64,000 nt of DNA. Source: Cognatundibacterium jejuense (GTDB lineage: Bacteria > Pseudomonadota > Gammaproteobacteria > Burkholderiales > Burkholderiaceae_D). The DNA lies in NCBI RefSeq assembly GCF_014284255.1, contig NZ_JACOFV010000006.1, positions 1-64,000 of the forward strand, read 5' to 3'. Positions 1,076 through 63,460 of the stretch are shown here, piece after piece. The notes beneath the pieces are model-generated. The model was not told the DNA's origin, did not search any database, and saw only the letters and a program-made list of their open reading frames with translations. Within the stretch, counting starts at the first letter, position 1; each line of letters starts with the position of its first letter. Both the position numbers and the translations under genes were made by a program.

Positions 1076-2005
1076 ATGTCGATCAAATCCCGCGTGGTTT
1101 TGGGTAGTGCTATTGCGTTGTTCGCGCTGAGCGCTTGTAATGATAAAGATAAAGCGGCATCTGCCACGACAGCTGCGGCAACTGATAGCAAAGAAGCAGT
1201 TGCAGCGACCGTCAACGGTACCCCTATCGCGAAAAAACAACTGGATCAGATCATGCAGCAACAAGCTGCTCAAGGGATGCCTGACAATCCAGAAACACGC
1301 AAAATGGTGATCGACAATCTGGCAATGCAAATCATCGTTGCTCAGGAAGCCGAGAAAAAAGGCCTGGATAAAGCACCTGAAGTGAAAGAACAGCTGGAAA
1401 TGGCACACATGTCCATCCTGGCAAATTCTTTTGTTAAAGATTACATGAAGACAGCAACAGTGACTGATGAAGCGCTGAAAGCTGAGTACGACAAGTTCAA
1501 AGCTTCCCAAGGCGGCAACGAATACAAAGCACGCCACATCCTGGTAGCGACTGAAGCTGAAGCGAAAGACATTATCGCTAAAATCACTAAAGATCCAAAA
1601 GCGTTTGATGGCTTGGCAAAATCCAAATCCAAAGATCCTGGTTCTAAAGACAAAGGCGGCGATCTGGGTTGGTTTAACCCACACAATATGGTGCCTGAAT
1701 TCGGTAACGCTGTAGCGAAACTCGAAAAAGGTAAATTCACGACTGAACCTGTTAAATCTCAGTTCGGCTACCACGTGATCATGTTGGAAGACTCACGTCC
1801 ATTGGCAGTACCGTCCTTAGAAGAAGTAAAAGCCGGTATGACTCAGCAATTGCAACAGCAAAATCTGAAAAAAATGCTGGACGACATGAAAGCAAAAGCA
1901 AAGATTGATATCGTTGCTGCACCAGCTGCAGCTTCTGCTGCGGCAGTAAGCGCGGCACCTGCTGCACCAGCATCAACTGCAACTGAAGCTGCTGCATCTA
2001 AGTAA
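1076..2005 (+). CDS. Parvulin-type peptidyl-prolyl cis-trans isomerase lipoprotein
   Basis: This is a PpiC/PrsA/SurA-type folding factor expected to act in the periplasm on exported proteins. Residues 1-21 form a lipoprotein signal with lipobox LSAC (Cys21 lipidated). Residues about 45-130 are a helical SurA-like chaperone region beginning with VNGTPIAKKQLDQI, and residues about 146-240 form the parvulin domain, with KARHILVATEAEAK, GGDLGWF and QFGYHVIMLED as family hallmarks. The C-terminal 40 residues are Ala/Pro-rich and probably disordered. The start follows AAGGAAAT. The gene is a single unit closed by a strong terminator. Assignment to the parvulin family is firm; the precise client is unknown. 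Confidence 0.92.
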   Translation: MSIKSRVVLGSAIALFALSACNDKDKAASATTAAATDSKEAVAATVNGTPIAKKQLDQIMQQQAAQGMPDNPETRKMVIDNLAMQIIVAQEAEKKGLDKAPEVKEQLEMAHMSILANSFVKDYMKTATVTDEALKAEYDKFKASQGGNEYKARHILVATEAEAKDIIAKITKDPKAFDGLAKSKSKDPGSKDKGGDLGWFNPHNMVPEFGNAVAKLEKGKFTTEPVKSQFGYHVIMLEDSRPLAVPSLEEVKAGMTQQLQQQNLKKMLDDMKAKAKIDIVAAPAAASAAAVSAAPAAPASTATEAAASK

Positions 2006-2020
2006 TCGCCTTATCCTTCA

Positions 2021-2059
2021 AAAATGGCTCATCACCTCACGGTGGTGGGCCATTTTTTG
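2021..2059 (+). terminator. Rho-independent terminator of the prolyl isomerase gene
   Basis: AAAATGGC and GGCCATTTTTT arms flank an inner ATCACC/GGTGGT stem, giving a long hairpin followed by a T run 16 bases after the stop codon. Confidence 0.85.
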
Positions 2060-2119
2060 TTTGCCAATTCGGTTTTTTAAACTGTACTTTAGTTTAGGTG
2101 TCACACATAGGAGAAGCAC

Positions 2120-2698
2120 ATGTTGGAATTAAATCCAAAATCAACCGCCTTAATTCTGATTGATCTGCAAAATGGCATTACTGCGTTGCCACTGGCACCG
2201 CGCTCTGGCGCTGAAATTTGTGCTATCTCTGAACGTCTGGCGGCGCAGTGTCGCACAGCGGGTGCTACCGTAGTGTTGGTCAATGTTGGCTGGGCAGCGG
2301 ACGGTGGTGATGTCTTGAAACAGATGGTTGATGTACCGATGGCGAGACCCGCTGGTGGCTTATCGGCCGATTGGAGTGATCTGGTACCTGGCCTGGCACA
2401 GCCTGGAGATTTACACGTCACCAAACATCAATGGGGAGCTTTCTACGGCACCGATCTGGATTTGCAATTACGTCGCCGTGGCATAGACACCATCATTCTG
2501 GGTGGCATAGCAACTAACTTTGGTGTCGAATCGACCGCCCGTGCAGCCTGGGAACATGGCTATCAAACCATCGTTCTTGAAGATGCTTGTAGTAGCATGA
2601 GCGAGGAATTACACCGCATGAGCACGCAGCATATACTGCCACGCATCAGCCGCGTCAGAAGCTGTGCGGATATACATTTCCTTACATCGACGGACTAA
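2120..2698 (+). CDS. yecD: YecD-type isochorismatase-fold hydrolase
   Basis: A cytoplasmic isochorismatase/cysteine-hydrolase-fold protein of 192 residues, close to E. coli YecD in pattern. Visible markers are the catalytic-type aspartate in LILIDLQNG (Asp15), the lysine in TKHQWGAFYGTDLDLQLRRR (Lys102), and GGIATNFGVESTARAAWEHG. The position that carries the nucleophilic cysteine in nicotinamidase-like members is Gly135 here, as in YecD and the EntB isochorismatase domain, so the enzyme is not a cysteine amidohydrolase; a vinyl-ether-type hydrolysis is possible but unproven. The start is preceded by TAGGAGA. It is a single gene with its own terminator. Confidence 0.88.
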   Translation: MLELNPKSTALILIDLQNGITALPLAPRSGAEICAISERLAAQCRTAGATVVLVNVGWAADGGDVLKQMVDVPMARPAGGLSADWSDLVPGLAQPGDLHVTKHQWGAFYGTDLDLQLRRRGIDTIILGGIATNFGVESTARAAWEHGYQTIVLEDACSSMSEELHRMSTQHILPRISRVRSCADIHFLTSTD

Positions 2699-2729
2699 GA
2701 TTTGACCTCCTGCTTTGTGTAGAAAATGC

Positions 2730-2761
2730 AATAATGACGCCGCAAATGTTGCGTCATTATT
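2730..2761 (+). terminator. Hairpin terminator after the YecD-type gene
   Basis: A perfect 11-base inverted repeat (AATAATGACGC / GCGTCATTATT) with a 10-base loop ends in ATTATTCTT, between the yecD-type stop and the next start. Confidence 0.7.
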
Positions 2762-2782
2762 CTTACCAAAACAGGATTATGC

Positions 2783-4942
2783 ATGCCAAATAATAATTTC
2801 GTCTGGACTGGCAGTGAGATCACGCTGGACGTGCGTCCAGATCGTCTGGATATACGTGACCGTCAATTCACACCGGCGGTACGCCACCTTCACCCAACTT
2901 GTCCTTCTCCAGATTGGGTCGCTGCGCATTGGCAGGCATATGTCGATGCGGGCATGATCTTGAATCAAGGGTCAGCTGGTGCCTGCACCGGGTTTGGTCT
3001 GTCCGCAGTGATTAATTATCTGCATTGGTGCGAGAACCCCGATCATCAGCAAGTCAGCCCGCGCATGGTTTACCACCTCGCCAAATTTTACGATGAATGG
3101 CAAGGTGACGACTATGTTGGTTCCAGCTGCCGTGGTGCGCTTAAAGGTTGGAATAAACATGGCGTATGCAGCCGCGATCTGTGGCCATTTACCGTGCATG
3201 CTAATAACACTGCCGTCAGTTGGGAGGCACCAAAAACAGGTTGGGAACAAGACGCCCAAACACGGCCATTGGGTGTGTATTATCGCATCAACAAAGACAG
3301 CATCAGCGATATGCAAGCAGCACTTGCAGAGACGGGAGCAGTGTATGTATCGGCCAGTGTGCATACCGGCTGGTATTTGTCTTCCTATCGGCAGCCTAAA
3401 AAGCCGCAGCCACTGACCAACCTAGATCAATTACCTTTGATTCCGGCACAAGCTCAAGGCATCGGTGGCCATGCGTTTGCTTTGATTGGTTATACCTCGC
3501 AAGGCTTCGTGGTTCAAAATTCCTGGGGGACGGGATGGGGATGTCAGGGTCTGGCAATACTCACTTATGAGGACTGGCAAAATAATTGCACTGATGCGTG
3601 GGCGGTCTCCCTTGGTGTGCCAAGCAGCGGTGTCAGCGCCTACGCCAGTACCGATTCTTACACGCCATTTCAATCCGGCCCGTCGATGCTCGCGGGATTA
3701 GTACCACCGATGGCGAGTAGGCGAAGCGGGCCTCCTCAACATAAAAAACCAGTCCACGCTGCGCACAGTCTACCGCCGCTGAGTCTGGACCAGGCCTATG
3801 GTTTGAGTCTTGTCATGGATAATAATGGCGCACTTATTCAACGGTTGGTGGCATTCAAAAATGCCGCTACCAGCGCCGAGCACATTGTCTATCATGCGCC
3901 GCTCGCCGCTTACACCCAACATAAATCAAAACGTGCTTTCAAACTCACGCTGTTTGCGCTCAGTGGTCTGGCGGATGAAGACACTACCCTGGCACATATT
4001 GCCTCGCTGGCACCGTATTTTCTGGCGAATGGCAGTTATCCAATTTTCCTGACATGGAATAGCGGTCTGGGTGATAGCCTGGATCAATTGCTATCGAGTG
4101 AATTTTCTACAGCTGGTAAAAGCACCGCGCAAGACATGAGCATAGAAAGCTACGCCGCGACCAATGGTGGCAAAGCCGAGTGGACGCTGTTAAAACAAAA
4201 TGCCGAACTATCTGTGCTCAATGACAGCCCACCACGCGGCTTGCATGTACTGGCGCGTTATTTGCAAAAATTGGCGAACGAAATTGGCCAAGACCATATG
4301 GAAATTCATCTGGTAGCTCATTCTGCAGGCGCACAACTGATTGGCAACTTGTTGCCGTATCTGAAAAAATTGAAGATCAAAACGTGCAGCTTGTTCGCTC
4401 CGGCTTGCAGCTTAGATTTTGCCAATGCAAAATTTTTACCTGTACTGGAATCGGGTCTGATTGCACGCAACCAATTTCATTTGCACGTATTATCCGACGA
4501 ACTGGAAAAAACTGACAATGTAGCGCAGATTTACAGCAAATCTTTGCTGTATCTGTTGGCACGTAGCTTTGAAGCTCGACATAAAACGCCAATGTTAGGC
4601 ATGGCAACGTCTTTGGACGCTGATTTTTTTTCCGGAAAAATCAAGGACAATGCACAATGGAATCCGGCGGCAATTCCAGCGCTCAGAAAATGGAACGACA
4701 CGTATTGGGGTAAACAATTGCCTAGAGGATTTGCAGCTAAAGGGCAAGGTTTAACACCCAAGCAAGCGAGCACTTTACATATCCAGCAGCAACGCTACGT
4801 GCATAGCGGTCATGAGGCATTACGGGCAGGTCATACGACGTTTGATTACGATGAAAAAACCATCAGTGCAACACTTTTGCGCATCGCCGGAATGAAGCCG
4901 GACCAGACTTTGCCATATCCGGTTGGCAATTTAAACTTGTAA
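2783..4942 (+). CDS. Papain-like C1 peptidase fused to an alpha/beta-hydrolase-like domain
   Basis: A 719-residue two-part protein. Residues about 35-275 are a C1 (papain-like) cysteine protease: the Q-x-x-x-x-x-C motif is NQGSAGACTGF (Gln62, Cys68), the histidine is in GGHAFALIGY (about His230) and the asparagine in QNSWGTGWG (about Asn245), so the catalytic set is complete. A Pro/Ser/His-rich linker near 290-330 follows. Residues about 350-690 contain HLVAHSAGAQLIGNLL, an alpha/beta-hydrolase nucleophile elbow (Ser514) with Ala in place of the first Gly. No signal peptide or propeptide is evident, unlike secreted papain enzymes. Start chosen at the ATG after ACAGGA; the ATG four bases upstream is out of frame. 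The C1 call is firm; the hydrolase call and substrate are inference. Confidence 0.85.
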   Translation: MPNNNFVWTGSEITLDVRPDRLDIRDRQFTPAVRHLHPTCPSPDWVAAHWQAYVDAGMILNQGSAGACTGFGLSAVINYLHWCENPDHQQVSPRMVYHLAKFYDEWQGDDYVGSSCRGALKGWNKHGVCSRDLWPFTVHANNTAVSWEAPKTGWEQDAQTRPLGVYYRINKDSISDMQAALAETGAVYVSASVHTGWYLSSYRQPKKPQPLTNLDQLPLIPAQAQGIGGHAFALIGYTSQGFVVQNSWGTGWGCQGLAILTYEDWQNNCTDAWAVSLGVPSSGVSAYASTDSYTPFQSGPSMLAGLVPPMASRRSGPPQHKKPVHAAHSLPPLSLDQAYGLSLVMDNNGALIQRLVAFKNAATSAEHIVYHAPLAAYTQHKSKRAFKLTLFALSGLADEDTTLAHIASLAPYFLANGSYPIFLTWNSGLGDSLDQLLSSEFSTAGKSTAQDMSIESYAATNGGKAEWTLLKQNAELSVLNDSPPRGLHVLARYLQKLANEIGQDHMEIHLVAHSAGAQLIGNLLPYLKKLKIKTCSLFAPACSLDFANAKFLPVLESGLIARNQFHLHVLSDELEKTDNVAQIYSKSLLYLLARSFEARHKTPMLGMATSLDADFFSGKIKDNAQWNPAAIPALRKWNDTYWGKQLPRGFAAKGQGLTPKQASTLHIQQQRYVHSGHEALRAGHTTFDYDEKTISATLLRIAGMKPDQTLPYPVGNLNL

Positions 4943-4964
4943 AAAACATTTTGAAATTTTGCAT

Positions 4965-5003
4965 AAAAAAACCGCCATCAAACCAACGATGGCGGTTTTT
5001 TTT
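4965..5003. terminator. Bidirectional terminator between convergent genes
   Basis: AAAAAACCGCCATC and GATGGCGGTTTTTTTT form a near-perfect stem with A and T runs on both sides, serving the protease gene and the convergent helicase gene. Confidence 0.92.
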
Positions 5004-5015
5004 CATTGCTTTAAT

Positions 5016-7394
5016 TTACTTCGATGGCTTACGACGCGTCGTGCCGCTGTCTTTATCAAACTTTGACGGACGACCATTCGAGAACTTACCTGCTGGCTTG
5101 CTATCGGAACGGCTGTCAGAACGCGCACCTGGCTTGCCTGCTGCCTTTTCTAATACGCGACGATCGCCACCAGATTTTTTCTGTCCTGCCGGGAAATCAT
5201 GCGCCACGCCACCACTGGTTGGCTCGCCGACTGGGCTGATTTTAATCTGCTTACCAGCAACCCATACACCTTTGAGTTGCGCCAGCAATTCAGGTGGCAT
5301 ACCAACCGGTAAATCCAACGTGCTGTGATTATCAAAAATATCGATACGACCAATGTATTTTGCTTCCATGCCTGCCTCATTGGCGATGGCACCAACGATA
5401 TTGGCTGGCGTTACGGTATCGGCTTTGCCGACTTCAATGCGGTAAGTTTGCATAGGAACGCTGACCTTGCCTTTGGACGCTTTTTCTTTTTTAGGCTTGG
5501 CGGGACGGTCGTCTTCATCTGGTGCGCTAAACGCACGTTCTACCACCTGATTCATACGGCTACCAGGTGCAGCGTCAGCGATACGTGGTGCGCGTTCAGT
5601 GCGCTCTGTACGTTCAGCACGTGGTTCGCTACGCGGCGAACGGGCTGGCGCGGAGGTACTGCCGCCTGCTTTTTCAGCACTGATGCGCAAAGACTGACCA
5701 GCAACACGAACGGATTTCAAATGATCGAGCATGTCTGCTGGCAAATCATCTGGCAAATCGAGAATCGTGTAATCGTCGTAAATGTCGATGCGGCCGATAA
5801 ATTTGGATTCGATATTCGCCTCATTGGCAATCGCGCCAACGATATTACCCGGTTTAACACCATGTTCGTGGCCGACTGCGATGCGGTAAGTTTGCATACC
5901 TGGTTCCGCAGTACGTGGGCTATGCTCGCGACGGACACTGCGGTCTTCGCGTTCAAAACGATCACCACGGTCACGGCCAGGGCGGTCACCGCGATCACCT
6001 CTGTCGCCGCGATCATTACGTGCAGGGCGCTCATCACGCCAGCTATCATCGGACTTCACTTCTTTGCGATTTTTATCCAACAACAAAGGTTCGTCGCCGC
6101 GCGCCATTTTGGCTAACGCAGCAGCAATTTCGATAGCCGGAATATTGTGTTCACGCTCGTAATCTTCGATCAGCGATGTGTATTCGTCCAGACCACCTTC
6201 TGCTAATGCGGTGGAAATCTGATCTTTAAAGCGGGCGATACGCACATTGTTGACCGTTTGTATCGTCGGCAATTCCAGTGGAGACACGGGTTGGCGAGTA
6301 GCGCGTTCAATCGCTTTCAAGAGATTTTTTTCACGTGGAGTGATAAACAAAATCGCCTCGCCGCTGCGGCCAGCGCGGCCAGTACGGCCGATACGGTGAG
6401 TATAGCTTTCTGGATCATACGGTACGTCGTAGTTAATCACGTGGCTGATACGCTCTACGTCCAGACCGCGGGCGGCGACGTCGGTCGCAACCAAAATATC
6501 GATCTTGCCGTCTTTTAATTGCTGAATCGTGCGTTCACGTTGTTGCTGATTGATATCGCCATTGATTGCTGCAACGGAGAAGCCTCTTGCATCCAGTTTG
6601 GCGGCCAATTCTTCAGTGCCCAGTTTGGTACGTGCAAAGATGATCATGCCGTCGAATGTTTCTGCTTCCAGAATACGGGTTAACGCATCCAGCTTATGCA
6701 TTCCGGAGACTAACCAGTAACGCTGGCGAATATTATCGGCAGTGCCAGTTTTAGCGGCAATTGTCACTTCAGCAGGCTTATTCAGATAAGTTTGTGCAAT
6801 ACGCTTAATCGCTGATGGCATCGTGGCCGAGAACAAGGCAGTCTGGCGACCTTCCGGTGTTTCTTGCAAAATGCGTTCAACGTCGTCAATAAAGCCCATG
6901 CGCAACATTTCGTCGGCTTCATCGAGAACCAATGTTTTAATTTTGGACAAATCCAAAGAACCCTTGTCCAAGTGATCAATCACCCGGCCTGGTGTACCAA
7001 CGACCACGTGCACGCCACGGCGTAATGCTGATAATTGTGGGCCATAGCTTTGGCCGCCATAAATCGGCAACACGTGAAAACCTGGAATATGGCGGGCATA
7101 AGTCTGGAATGCCTCGGCAACCTGAATTGCTAATTCGCGGGTTGGTGCCAGCACCAAAGCTTGCGGTGTAGTTTGACGGATATCTAAGCGTGACAAAATC
7201 GGCAAGGCAAACGATGCCGTTTTGCCGGTACCAGTTTGCGCTTGGCCCAGGACATCGCGGTTATCCAGCAAAATAGGAATCGTTGCCGCCTGAATAGGGG
7301 AGGGTGTTTCGTAACCGACATCTTGTAAGGCGCGCAATAAAGGCGCACTCAGTTGCAGATCGGAAAAAGTAATAATAGGTGTGGATTCTGACAT
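5016..7394 (-). CDS. deaD: DEAD-box RNA helicase with two DbpA-type RNA-binding domains
   Basis: An ATP-dependent RNA helicase for ribosome assembly or RNA turnover, especially in the cold. Motifs in order: Q motif region FSDLQLSAPLL, Walker A AQTGTGKT, PTRELAIQ, VLDEADEML, SAT, and in the second RecA domain VATDVAARGLD and HRIGRTGRAGR. A basic RGDRGDR-rich linker (about 450-495) follows. The C-terminus carries two copies of a DbpA-like RRM fold, at about 499-575 and 647-722, each starting MQTYRI and containing IVGAIANEA and IGRIDI; the usual DeaD/CsdA has one. The tail is basic and Ser-rich. Family assignment is certain; deaD rather than another dea/rhl name is inferred from the DbpA domain. 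It is monocistronic with a long leader. Confidence 0.93.
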   Translation of the reverse strand: MSESTPIITFSDLQLSAPLLRALQDVGYETPSPIQAATIPILLDNRDVLGQAQTGTGKTASFALPILSRLDIRQTTPQALVLAPTRELAIQVAEAFQTYARHIPGFHVLPIYGGQSYGPQLSALRRGVHVVVGTPGRVIDHLDKGSLDLSKIKTLVLDEADEMLRMGFIDDVERILQETPEGRQTALFSATMPSAIKRIAQTYLNKPAEVTIAAKTGTADNIRQRYWLVSGMHKLDALTRILEAETFDGMIIFARTKLGTEELAAKLDARGFSVAAINGDINQQQRERTIQQLKDGKIDILVATDVAARGLDVERISHVINYDVPYDPESYTHRIGRTGRAGRSGEAILFITPREKNLLKAIERATRQPVSPLELPTIQTVNNVRIARFKDQISTALAEGGLDEYTSLIEDYEREHNIPAIEIAAALAKMARGDEPLLLDKNRKEVKSDDSWRDERPARNDRGDRGDRGDRPGRDRGDRFEREDRSVRREHSPRTAEPGMQTYRIAVGHEHGVKPGNIVGAIANEANIESKFIGRIDIYDDYTILDLPDDLPADMLDHLKSVRVAGQSLRISAEKAGGSTSAPARSPRSEPRAERTERTERAPRIADAAPGSRMNQVVERAFSAPDEDDRPAKPKKEKASKGKVSVPMQTYRIEVGKADTVTPANIVGAIANEAGMEAKYIGRIDIFDNHSTLDLPVGMPPELLAQLKGVWVAGKQIKISPVGEPTSGGVAHDFPAGQKKSGGDRRVLEKAAGKPGARSDSRSDSKPAGKFSNGRPSKFDKDSGTTRRKPSK

Positions 7395-60617: not shown

Positions 60618-60641
60618 GGCATTAAAAATAAAACCTTAGCA

Positions 60642-60670
60642 GGGATTGGCGGACTGCACCCGCCAATCCC
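60642..60670. terminator. Strong hairpin after the second M16 protease
   Basis: GGGATTGGCGG and CCGCCAATCCC form a perfect 11-base stem with a seven-base loop, 25 bases after the stop. There is no T run, so it may be a Rho-stabilising or REP-type hairpin rather than a classical terminator. Confidence 0.55.
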
Positions 60671-60778
60671 ACTCAGCCTGCGAACTACCCCTACTAACTA
60701 GTCAGACCTGCAATTTCCTTGCGACCCGCATGAATACTAGGAGGTTGTATCGCAGTAAGGTAGAACAAGCACATAAAG

Positions 60779-60792
60779 GGTTCTGTTGCAAT
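60779..60792 (+). repeat. IS6-type terminal-repeat-like string
   Basis: GGGTTCTGTTGCAA resembles the ends of some IS6-family elements as I recall them. It lies 1.8 kb from an IS6 transposase remnant; no matching opposite end was found. Confidence 0.3.
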
Positions 60793-60909
60793 CGCGAGTC
60801 CAAGGCCACCAAATCAGCTCAAACAGCACTCACTGAAACTTAGTTTTTTTTGTCACAACTTACATCACCTCATCTGAATCATATTTAATCAGCATTTTTC
60901 TATAAATCA

Positions 60910-61135
60910 TCATTGCAGGTATTTGACTTTATATCTTTCATATTCTTGATCTTGTTCAGATTGGGAACTCGAAGCAATTGGAGGATTTTTTTGCCACCAC
61001 CACGTTATTATTGCAGCTATTACTAAGCCAGCAGCTTCACAACCACCCGCAACAAACACCAGGAATAACTAAGAAGAACAATCTACCATCTGGATCAATA
61101 CGAGTTAAAGGATTTCCCCCGACATACGCATACGT
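60910..61135 (-). pseudogene. Displaced Rhs C-terminal tip (orphan rhs-CT), frameshifted
   Basis: On the minus strand the sequence opens with TYAYVGGNPLTRIDPDGRLFF, the conserved end of an Rhs core including the DPxG motif, and then enters a hydrophobic/glycine-rich tip: LVFVAGGCEAAGLVIAAIIT, WWWQKNPPIASSSQ and a polar end EYERYKVKYLQ. Joining the two parts requires a one-base shift in ATTCCTGG. Core fragments fused to a different tip and lying downstream of an rhs gene are a known feature of rhs loci. There is no start codon and no expected ribosome-binding site, so it is a silent cassette. Confidence 0.65.
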
Positions 61136-61176
61136 AAAAAAACCGGCAAAGGATGTTTCCCTTACCGGTTTTTTTG
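61136..61176 (-). terminator. Terminator of the rhs tip/immunity unit
   Basis: AAAAAAACCGG and CCGGTTTTTTT with further AAGG/CCTT pairing form a hairpin flanked by A and T runs, about 60 bases beyond the immunity-candidate stop. Confidence 0.85.
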
Positions 61177-61237
61177 TCTATAAGTATAAAGAGATGAGAC
61201 TGTGTACTATAGCCGTATTATGAGAACGTTATAAAAA

Positions 61238-61561
61238 TTAGTTTTTAATGCCATTGACCTCAATACTTTGCAGCAATTCATCTAAAGAAAAGTCATCTAA
61301 ATTCGCCCATTTCATACGTGCCTCTATAAATCTCCGTAAAGCGACAATTAATTCATGCACGTGACTTGGCATATTTTCTGCAACACAAATCTGTATCGTT
61401 CGAAAATCTTTCACCGAAAACGATAACAATCTACCGGTAGCGTCGTATCCGGCATATTCATTATGCTGAATATCGATTGCCTCAATACTCTGCTCCGCAT
61501 CTTTTAACGACCAATAGATAGATACGTCGCCGTTTTCATCAATAATCAATGGCATTTTCAT
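61238..61561 (-). CDS. Candidate Rhs immunity protein, 107 aa
   Basis: A small acidic cytoplasmic protein: MKMPLIIDENGDVSIYWSLK, DAEQSIEAIDIQHNEYAGYD, ATGRLLSFSVKD, ending LDDFSLDELLQSIEV. Proteins of this type (ENGDVSI... NEYxAYDxxGRLL) are, as I recall, common just after rhs toxin tips and are thought to be immunity proteins. Its ATG lies one base after the rhs stop (TAATATG), so it is translationally coupled to the toxin, which is how immunity genes are arranged. The specific interaction is inferred from position. A longer upstream start would merely read through the rhs end. Confidence 0.75.
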   Translation of the reverse strand: MKMPLIIDENGDVSIYWSLKDAEQSIEAIDIQHNEYAGYDATGRLLSFSVKDFRTIQICVAENMPSHVHELIVALRRFIEARMKWANLDDFSLDELLQSIEVNGIKN

Positions 61562-61562
61562 A

Positions 61563-62612
61563 TTAAAACCTGTCACACCAATTTTTATCCGGAGACTTTT
61601 TCTCCCAAGGACGATGTCGTCCAATACCTTGCACTTGAGGAGTTTTACCATTGCCATCTGGCGAACCTCTACGATGGTAGTGAGGCCACTCGCCATATTT
61701 ATTACCCGTTCTATTTCCCCACGGAGCAATTATTATATTTTTGTCAATGCCTATCTCTCCACCAGATTTAATACCAATCGCATTAACCACAATACCCGCT
61801 CCTACTCCTCCCCAGTATTCTCTCGAACTGAAATCAACTGCGTCATTGGTTCCCATTATTTCGCGAATTAAAGACGTCATCCCTAAAGACACACCGTCAC
61901 CAAAACCTGCAGCGGCATTAACAACAGGCTGAGGAATAGCCGGCATATCAGCCCACCCCGCGCAGCTCCCATTTTCATTTCGATACAAACACATCTCCAA
62001 TTCCGATGGATCCGTTCCAGAAACAGGATTCCCACCCACATAGGCATAGGTATTGATGCCACCGTTGAGTCCAATCGGATCACTCGTTACATACCGCCCC
62101 GTTTGCGGATCATAATACCGGTTGTAGTTGTAATGCAACCCCGTCTCTTGATCTTCATACTGCCCCGGAAACCGTAACTTGGACGTGATCGTTGCTTTAT
62201 CAGTTGTGACTGCAGGTGTCGTGACCGTAGCGCGTCCAAATGGCGTATAACTCGCACTCCACACGATATTGCCTGCTTTATCGGTCGCTTGCATCGGTGT
62301 TTGCAAATGATCGTTATGGTAGTAGGCGATGGTGTCTTGACCTGAGCTGTTCTTGGTTTTGATGAACAGTATTCCGGTCATAAAGCCATTGTCTGGTTTA
62401 GGACCGTATTGGGTCGTAATGGTAGCGCTACCGCTTAATGTCGTGGTTTGATCTGCATTGAGTGTGATGTCTTGCGTTGCTTCTGCGATCAAGCCTTCGT
62501 CAGCGTAAAGGAAGCTGGTGCATTTTGCCGGGTTGAGGCTTGCTCCATCATATCTTTTCCAACATCGGTAAGAACTGGCACGCACAACGATTAATAGAAG
62601 AGTGATCCACAA
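61563..62612 (-). pseudogene. 5'-truncated Rhs protein with C-terminal toxin-like domain
   Basis: The frame holds the end of an Rhs core: TSFLYADEGLIAEATQ, YYHNDHLQTPMQATDKAGNI, FPGQYEDQETGLHYNYNRYY, DPQTGRYVTSDPIGL and TYAYVGGNPVSGTDPSELEM (up to about residue 205). The variable tip (206-349) ends IAPWGNRTGNKYGEWPHYHR, followed by RGSPDGNGK...GIGRHRPWEKKSPDKN and CDRF, a His/Arg-rich motif seen in other Rhs tips, possibly a nuclease; I cannot name it. The first about 18 codons are out-of-frame IS6 sequence, so the normal core and start are missing. The coupled downstream gene is the probable immunity partner. Confidence 0.82.
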
Positions 62613-62739
62613 ACACGCCGCGCTCTTGCATCATCTCTTCAATACGGCGATAACTCAAAGGATAAGCGGCATACCACCGTATACAAACCAAAATCACTTC
62701 CAGCGGAAAACGTCAGCCTTTGGTGTTCACCGTCGTCAT
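62548..62739 (-). pseudogene. IS6-family transposase N-terminal fragment
   Basis: From ATG the frame reads MTTVNTKG, meets TGA, then RFPLEVILVCIRWYAAYPLS, YRRIEEMMQERGVFVDHSSI, NRCACQFLPMLEKI and a stop. This is the N-terminal part of an IS6-family transposase (zinc/HTH region and start of the catalytic domain). The DDE catalytic part is missing: the sequence changes to rhs about position 62555. The in-frame stop replaces an Arg codon (CGA to TGA). It is a dead remnant that marks the recombination breakpoint in rhs. Confidence 0.8.
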
Positions 62740-62818
62740 CAAAAATTACCGTTCGCATCAAACTCCTTCGTTTAAGGTAATCACTCTCTTTTCAAAATTA
62801 ACGCGACATCCCTACTAA

Positions 62819-63460
62819 CTACCCCTTCCAACTACGCTGCAAGCCGGTGTCCGTATGGATCCAGCCACCGTTTGCACTAGCGCGGTAATAGAAGCCCACA
62901 CCACCCTCACGAAAACTGGTGATCAGCGAGCCCAGTACTTCTTCATGTAAATGGGGAATACGGATGTCAGCGGCTTTGCCGTCCATATGCAAGGATTTAC
63001 GTGCGGCAGGAACACCTTGTTCGATCAACCGACGATTAGAATCTGGTGTGCGATATCCAGATAAAATTTCTAGCGGTTTGGTCATACCAAAACGCGCCAC
63101 ATAGGCTTGGGTGGCCCATAAGGTTTCAAACAACTTAGGATCGATTGCTGCGGATTGTTTGCCATTCACGTCACGCAAAATATGGCACAACTCCTGATAG
63201 GCAGAATCGATAATTTCACCATCTTTCCAGTAGAGCAATTTGCTACGCTCGTTGGATGCCGGGCGGATCAGATCAATCGTCCGTGGCTTTACCCAAAAAT
63301 CGATGTCTAAAGCTTGCGAGTCGAACAGATCAGGCGGCGGCGCTAATTCGGACGATTTTGCATCCGCCGCATGCGCAGAGCCTATTAATTTTGTGGTGCT
63401 GAACAGGCCAGCAGCGGTGAGAAGAATACTTTTCTTTAATATTTGGCGGCGTGTAGTCAT
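62819..63460 (-). CDS. DUF882 / YcbK-type M15-like murein-associated protein with Tat signal
   Basis: A 213-residue exported protein. The N-terminus MTTRRQILKKSILLTAAGLF has a twin-arginine pattern (RRQILK) and ends near GSAHAAD. The domain at about 125-213 matches the DUF882 peptidase-M15A-like fold: LSGYRTPDSNRRLIEQG, SLHMDGKAADIRIPH with His and Asp, and GWIHTDTGLQRSW with the second His, the usual zinc ligands. Relatives are predicted peptidoglycan carboxypeptidases or amidases in the YcbK family. Enzymatic activity is inferred. It directly follows the IS/rhs debris. Confidence 0.9.
   Translation of the reverse strand: MTTRRQILKKSILLTAAGLFSTTKLIGSAHAADAKSSELAPPPDLFDSQALDIDFWVKPRTIDLIRPASNERSKLLYWKDGEIIDSAYQELCHILRDVNGKQSAAIDPKLFETLWATQAYVARFGMTKPLEILSGYRTPDSNRRLIEQGVPAARKSLHMDGKAADIRIPHLHEEVLGSLITSFREGGVGFYYRASANGGWIHTDTGLQRSWKG

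Follow-up and report, generated by a model that had tools for sequence, protein, structure and literature searches.

What is a cluster of rhs and IS6 pieces, with one small gene among them, doing between two peptidase genes in the 64 kb stretch of DNA analysed here (the window): is it what remains of an rhs gene that once resided there, a toxin-immunity module carried in from elsewhere, or plain debris?

Layout of the cluster and its insertion site

Between 62812 and 60910 the minus strand carries, in this order, an IS6 element's 5' end, an rhs core end, a tip, a gene for a 107-aa protein, a terminator and a second rhs core end. The IS6 fragment, the core end with its tip, the 107-aa gene at a spacing of one base and the terminator had all been proposed in a first-pass annotation, and all were recovered on that strand. 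The features are the following.

60692-60699, strand-less: left copy of TACTAACT
60778-60806, plus strand: end of another IS6 element, 28 of 29 bases identical to the 3' end of an IS6 copy on contig C4 (L051)
60910-61047, minus strand: rest of the second tip in a different frame, to a stop; no toxin domain recognised
61037-61138, minus strand: second rhs core end (end of TIGR03696) and start of the second tip, to a stop
61136-61175, minus strand: terminator hairpin after the putative immunity gene, 18-bp stem
61238-61561, minus strand: putative immunity gene (107 aa), whose relatives adjoin the same toxin domain at nine of nine other loci
61566-61766, minus strand: predicted 67-aa toxin domain, motifs APWGNRT, PHYHRR, QGIGRHRPWE and DRF
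61767-61997, minus strand: linker, the start of the tip, with an in-frame ATG shortly after the core DP motif
61998-62549, minus strand: rhs core end lacking its 5' part, with TIGR03696 and PF03527 matches
62550-62812, minus strand: IS6-family remnant, comprising the 5' terminal repeat and the beginning of the transposase, truncated at its junction with rhs
62813-62820, strand-less: right copy of TACTAACT, a candidate 8-bp target-site duplication abutting the IS6 terminal repeat

The first core end lies within a 349-aa ORF, residues 122-203 of which match TIGR03696 (E 4.7e-26) and residues 95-129 PF03527 (E 2.1e-13). The first residues of this ORF are IS6 DNA read out of frame and not Rhs; the rhs core begins at the IS6 junction near 62550, which bears out the earlier statement that the 5' part of the core had been lost and leaves a gene without its delivery part. 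A single base lies between its stop codon (61563-61565) and the start codon of the 107-aa gene (ATG, 61559-61561).

Of the second core end (TYAYVGGNP...DPDG), a stretch of 17 residues aligns with the final positions of TIGR03696 (E 0.0034, 17.9 bits against a curated cut-off of 32.5). Though weak and below the cut-off, this match is correctly placed, and we take the second core end to be genuine but short; the Rhs homology of TYAYVGGNP, on which the first-pass annotation had staked its reading, thus held, if weakly. The tip behind it is split over two frames, one running from TYAYVGGNP to GVCCGWL and a stop, the other from GGCEAAG through WWWQKNPP to KYLQ and a stop, and beyond the core end it showed no family or homologue in Pfam, NCBIfam or the plasmid collection. 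Of the proposed second core end with a different tip, the core end stands and the tip, frame-shifted and with no recognised toxin domain, does not, so that the two alternative tips of that proposal reduce to one usable tip.

Elsewhere in the source genome, rhs core matches occur only on contig C8 and are 42% identical. The array on that contig (positions 3651-10305 of L090, C8:125000-136070) is led by a 1133-aa RHS-repeat protein, behind which come two separate core ends, their tips differing from each other and each being followed by a 161-aa gene of its own.

The cluster is flanked upstream by a co-directional M15-type peptidase gene (PF05951) and downstream by a converging M16 peptidase gene (PF00675, PF05193). 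The M15 gene was matched in all 43 genus genomes, and 30 M15 loci were examined, one of which was the window's own, leaving 29 for comparison. A closely related M16 gene ends 98-265 bp from the M15 gene (measured between the last aligned bases) in six of these 29 relatives, with no rhs between them; a diverged M16 gene (35-41% identical) lies within the compared stretch at another seven, and at the remaining 16 no M16 gene was found in the stretch, some of these stretches being cut by contig ends. Comparison of related genomes for an intact rhs, as the first-pass annotation had suggested, yielded an rhs core match at none of the 29 M15 loci. Because the flanking genes are adjacent without rhs in six same-genus relatives, the 2.1-kb cluster is an insertion between the M15 and M16 peptidase genes. 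The rhs displacement architecture invoked earlier is upheld in so far as an orphan module is accompanied by a second dissociated core end, whereas nothing points to the decay of a resident complete rhs gene, the flanks lying close together in those six relatives. No complete rhs of the same core clade lies directly upstream, where the M15 peptidase gene is found instead; such an upstream rhs is a usual, not a necessary, feature of dissociated tips.

The IS6 remnant starts at an IS6-like terminal repeat (62812). Contigs C4 and C5 of the source genome contain IS6 pieces that align with it, five further partial matches to it being counted there. The octamer TACTAACT occurs in the 64 kb window, on the strand searched, only at 60692 and 62813; when the spacer to the left (60618-60776) was shuffled 5000 times, 39 of the shuffles contained it. 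IS6 elements duplicate 8 bp of their target, and the TACTAACT pair is compatible with such a duplication, though its left copy abuts no IS end. By eye, GGTTGTATCGCAGTAA at 60743-60758 also resembles an IS6 end, and several IS6 ends may be nested to the left of the cluster. Since IS6 pieces are present on both flanks, IS6 activity is suggested to have brought or trimmed the cluster.

The toxin domain and its coupled partner

The usable tip consists of two parts, a linker half and then a separate domain of 67 residues. The linker half by itself matches six loci (L006, L007, L011, L012, L014 and L015), which were left out of the loci counted for the toxin domain. The domain proper was found at nine further places, namely a Methylomonas plasmid, a Neisseria record, three IMG/VR viral contigs (L081, L082 and L097) and four bacterial genomes. 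Compared with six homologues it is 46-62% identical over an aligned stretch of 75 residues, and the positions invariant in all seven sequences include A-P, G, R, H-x-H, Q-G, R-H-R-P-W, D and R-F.

The carriers differ. On the plasmid of Methylomonas sp. DH-1 (L008) the domain ends a 1,897-aa annotated Rhs protein (WP_082881143.1), in Neisseria gonorrhoeae (L009) it ends a 179-aa protein with, by eye, a signal-like start, and on L081 and L097 it is carried by viral contigs. In genome G079 (L010) it forms an orphan directly after adk, the identity of which NCBIfam confirms. L078 is from genome G456, and L079 (genome G447) retains only the end of the toxin domain and has an interrupted immunity gene. 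In L088 (genome G902) the toxin domain is broken and the frame upstream of it matches an RHS core model (E 2e-7), and in L082 about 100 bases separate toxin and immunity gene. A P22-like portal gene (PF16510, E 3.2e-176) stands upstream of the domain in L081 with two ORFs (317 and 150 aa) between them; no Pfam family was found in one neighbouring L081 protein or in the L097 carrier. Further copies were not counted anew, among them L077, L086 and L094 for L010, L084 and L095 for L078, L085 for L079, L096 for L081 and L098 for L082; likewise NZ_CP119140, another gonococcal record that has the domain, was counted with L009.

Several of these loci have peculiarities of their own. The gonococcal record NZ_CP119142.1 (L009) is labelled a plasmid but, at 2.17 Mb, is probably a chromosome, and the toxin-like 179-aa protein is absent from its gene table of 17 features. 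L078 carries two related immunity genes in tandem behind one toxin (1686-2608). L088 has, on its minus strand at about 1680-1125, an intact 117-aa immunity frame beside the broken toxin. In L081, the portal gene is followed (1977-5600) by three genes or gene fragments that begin almost identically and diverge at their C-terminal ends, a set that resembles displaced rhs tips but lies on a viral contig.

The toxin domain is rare in the sampled genomes. Its toxin part was found in none of 42 genus genomes besides the source genome, where one linker match was seen, and true matches numbered one among 368 genomes of the class sample, three among 397 of the phylum sample (G079 again included), one among 398 of the order sample and two, both already known, among eight in the family of G456, all these samples overlapping. 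No match was obtained in 50,697 phage records, and a scan of genome contigs gave one locus, with the linker only. Three further candidates, L013 (E 7.5e-4), L080 (2.5e-4) and L089 (9.8e-4), were rejected as chance matches, having stops inside the match and no ORF matching the immunity profile. A Streptomyces plasmid match (H7, E 0.2) is outside the nine loci.

No Pfam or NCBIfam family was recognised up to E 10 for the toxin domains of the window, L008 and L010, in searches in which HMMER's filters drop most weak matches, and the single NCBIfam match of the whole L009 protein (E 0.016, residues 1-23) falls outside the domain. The domain of the window gave no match up to E 1 in PADLOC and PHROGs, and a toxin profile of four sequences found none among PDB sequences. 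An AlphaFold2 model of the domain, from an alignment of five sequences, had a mean pLDDT of 49.6 and was unusable for a fold search or for recognising a BECR-fold RNase.

The 107-aa protein had no convincing match in Pfam, NCBIfam, PADLOC, PHROGs or PDB sequences either, the weak ones being NifT (E 0.033), two PHROGs (0.21 and 0.25) and one PDB chain (1). Its model reached a mean pLDDT of 84.5, and Foldseek with this model against PDB and viral models returned nothing at E 0.001. The best structural match on a second look, 2l6o (titled as a Shewanella protein; Z 6.1, rmsd 3.9, 97 residues aligned), was dismissed as too weak. Among 60 genomes, the source genome included, the gene occurs in the source genome only.

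At all nine other loci, including that of the 1,897-aa Rhs, the gene immediately downstream of the toxin domain encodes a relative of the 107-aa protein, and the doubt raised in the first-pass annotation, that the protein might never be found next to rhs tips, is thereby settled in favour of the pairing. As the rows of the immunity profile had been chosen for adjoining a toxin, each was scored by a profile built without it, and these held-out profiles were run against the ORFs of the window and the 98 loci together, 4748 distinct ones in total. The resulting E values were about 1e-13 for the window, 7.1e-16 for L008, 1.3e-9 for L009, 6.8e-13 for L010, 7.2e-7 for L082, 9.8e-17 for L078 and 4.8e-15 for L079, with a weak 0.027 for L081, and the sole other match up to E 10 was the remainder of the interrupted L079 gene. 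An earlier profile without the window row, run on 5543 ORFs including repeats, detected the window protein at E 2.5e-15. The proteins of L088 and L097, neither of which was ever in the immunity profile, scored 1.2e-18 and 2.3e-6 (420 ORFs). Used alone, with no profile, the 107-aa protein of the window found its relatives with an E of 0.0012 or better at six of eight loci, with 0.045 at L078, and missed that of L081; among 72,556 plasmid records it matched a single record, at the gene beside the Methylomonas toxin. Most of the similarity is found within the first 50 residues, where identity is 40% to Methylomonas and 46% to L010.

That the 107-aa gene is an unrelated neighbour and no immunity gene would agree with the absence of any family model naming the protein and with conservation mainly in its N-terminal half, yet we regard this as very improbable given the coupling at nine of nine loci on different vehicles, the held-out profiles and a control set of 931 ORFs, taken from 25 other rhs loci, in which the immunity profile had no match at E 1. 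Judged from these comparisons of sequence, the toxin domain and the 107-aa protein constitute a family that travels as a pair on different vehicles.

Predicted function and present use

As a whole, the locus is in our view quite probably an orphan rhs C-terminal module, comprising one complete tip and the immunity gene of a travelling family with several vehicles. The tip and immunity gene, now lodged between the M15-type and M16 peptidase genes, would have been cut from a delivery protein at the IS6 junction. In the complete pairs, the window included, the toxin has a pI of 9.7-11.7 and its partner one of 4.2-5.2 in eight of eight cases, a difference in charge read from these pairs alone; the immunity protein of L088, where the toxin is broken, has a pI of 5.8. 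Because the model of the toxin domain was unusable, the nuclease reading is drawn from this charge and from the conserved His and Arg. The most likely mechanism, with about an even chance, would be that of a small basic nuclease to which the acidic immunity protein binds directly, so blocking it; that the nuclease is an RNase, although the likeliest kind, we put at roughly even.

Delivery from this locus is unlikely, since the core is without its 5' part and no match to the T6SS component Hcp (PF05638) was found in the genome (98.7% complete), in a search whose control matched one of 14 genomes, that of E. coli. That the pair no longer serves as a delivered weapon in this genome has, as we see it, about an even chance of being right. 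A similar weight is given to the next step, in which the immunity gene, and perhaps the toxin from an internal ATG, would be expressed by read-through from the M15 gene ending at 61175-61136. The hairpin at that position has a free energy of -24.4 kcal/mol and a z of -6.8, none of 200 shuffles being as good, although a generic terminator scan did not list it. A promoter scan returned five sites inside the cluster against 5.3 expected, that is, no signal above chance. A weak hairpin within the IS6 remnant counts against read-through. The likely use of the module would then be protection against neighbours that carry the same toxin, or a reserve of tips.

The strongest competing explanation of present use is that nothing in the cluster, not even the pair, is expressed or has a function today, the insertion simply decaying; we hold this to be a serious possibility, somewhat short of even. 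It draws on the frame-shifted second tip, the core without its 5' part, the promoter scan, the IS6 ends on both sides of a site that is empty in six relatives, the missing Hcp match and the breakage also seen at L079 and L088, two of the other nine loci. Against it, toxin domain and immunity gene alike retain complete reading frames and their conserved motifs, albeit in a single genome, the terminator is intact and the upstream M15 gene is co-directional. As it concerns present use, this explanation is compatible with a real toxin-immunity module.

The pair could also work inside the cell as a type II-like toxin-antitoxin system expressed from internal starts, by analogy with an orphan rhs of Salmonella. 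An in-frame ATG at 61997 starts the tip a few codons past the core motif, with a GGA upstream, and PMC7043789 provides a precedent in internal promoters and starts around that motif. With no promoter above chance and a weak translation signal in the window, however, we rate such a system as improbable. Returning to the orphan-module explanation, its boldest form would have an uncatalogued nuclease and an obligate acidic partner move as one unit between Rhs, short secreted and phage-borne proteins, the pair in this genome being planted by IS6 where a housekeeping transcript supplies the shield; this combination we consider rather unlikely as a whole.

The way in which such cassettes spread is illustrated by this one toxin-immunity family, occurring as it does on several unrelated vehicles, and its toxin domain, being short and with few conserved residues, is directly testable. 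An orphan behind a housekeeping gene would moreover allow the idea that immunity genes are kept as shields to be tested. In L088 the toxin is broken and the immunity frame is intact, as that idea would have it, yet in L079 the immunity gene is broken too.

Comparison with known systems

In dissociated rhs tips (PMC2935791) and in orphan CdiA-CT/CdiI and rhs modules (PMC3150448), as in the window, a core-end fragment is joined to a variable tip and a small immunity gene; those modules likewise are without a delivery part and are arrayed with a second dissociated core end. Unlike those modules, the array of the window stands alone, with no complete rhs directly upstream, at a site that is bordered on either side by IS6 remnants and unoccupied in relatives. 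Orphan CdiA-CT/CdiI modules are described as functional, with expression of orphan immunity (PMC3150448), and an orphan Rhs toxin of Salmonella as expressed from internal promoters (PMC7043789). The Salmonella locus resembles ours in arrangement, with an orphan toxin beside its immunity partner and, close to the core motif, a possible internal start, but here no promoter signal exceeds chance.

Many Ntox toxins are predicted RNases (PMC3482391). Like the domain described here, the Ntox families are short C-terminal toxins that have conserved His and Arg residues and an immunity gene next to them, whereas no Pfam model matches our domain up to E 10; it may be described in PMC3482391 under another name. 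In the open-licence literature, nothing was retrieved for the toxin motif letters or the two Methylomonas accessions, and among the papers found there on rhs, toxins, IS6 and orphans none deals with this toxin-immunity family, judging by titles. The MafB-CT cassettes of Neisseria (PMC4287609) are C-terminal, some of them silent, and each is followed by an immunity gene, as is the case here, whereas the Neisseria homologue of our domain is a 179-aa protein with a signal-like start by eye. With the MuF-type polymorphic toxins of phages (PMC5576092), the family shares a position near phage portal genes and small downstream immunity ORFs, the portal gene in L081 differing in being P22-like (PF16510) and standing two genes before. 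As far as the family libraries searched tell, the new part of this locus is its toxin-immunity family, set in an architecture that is already known.
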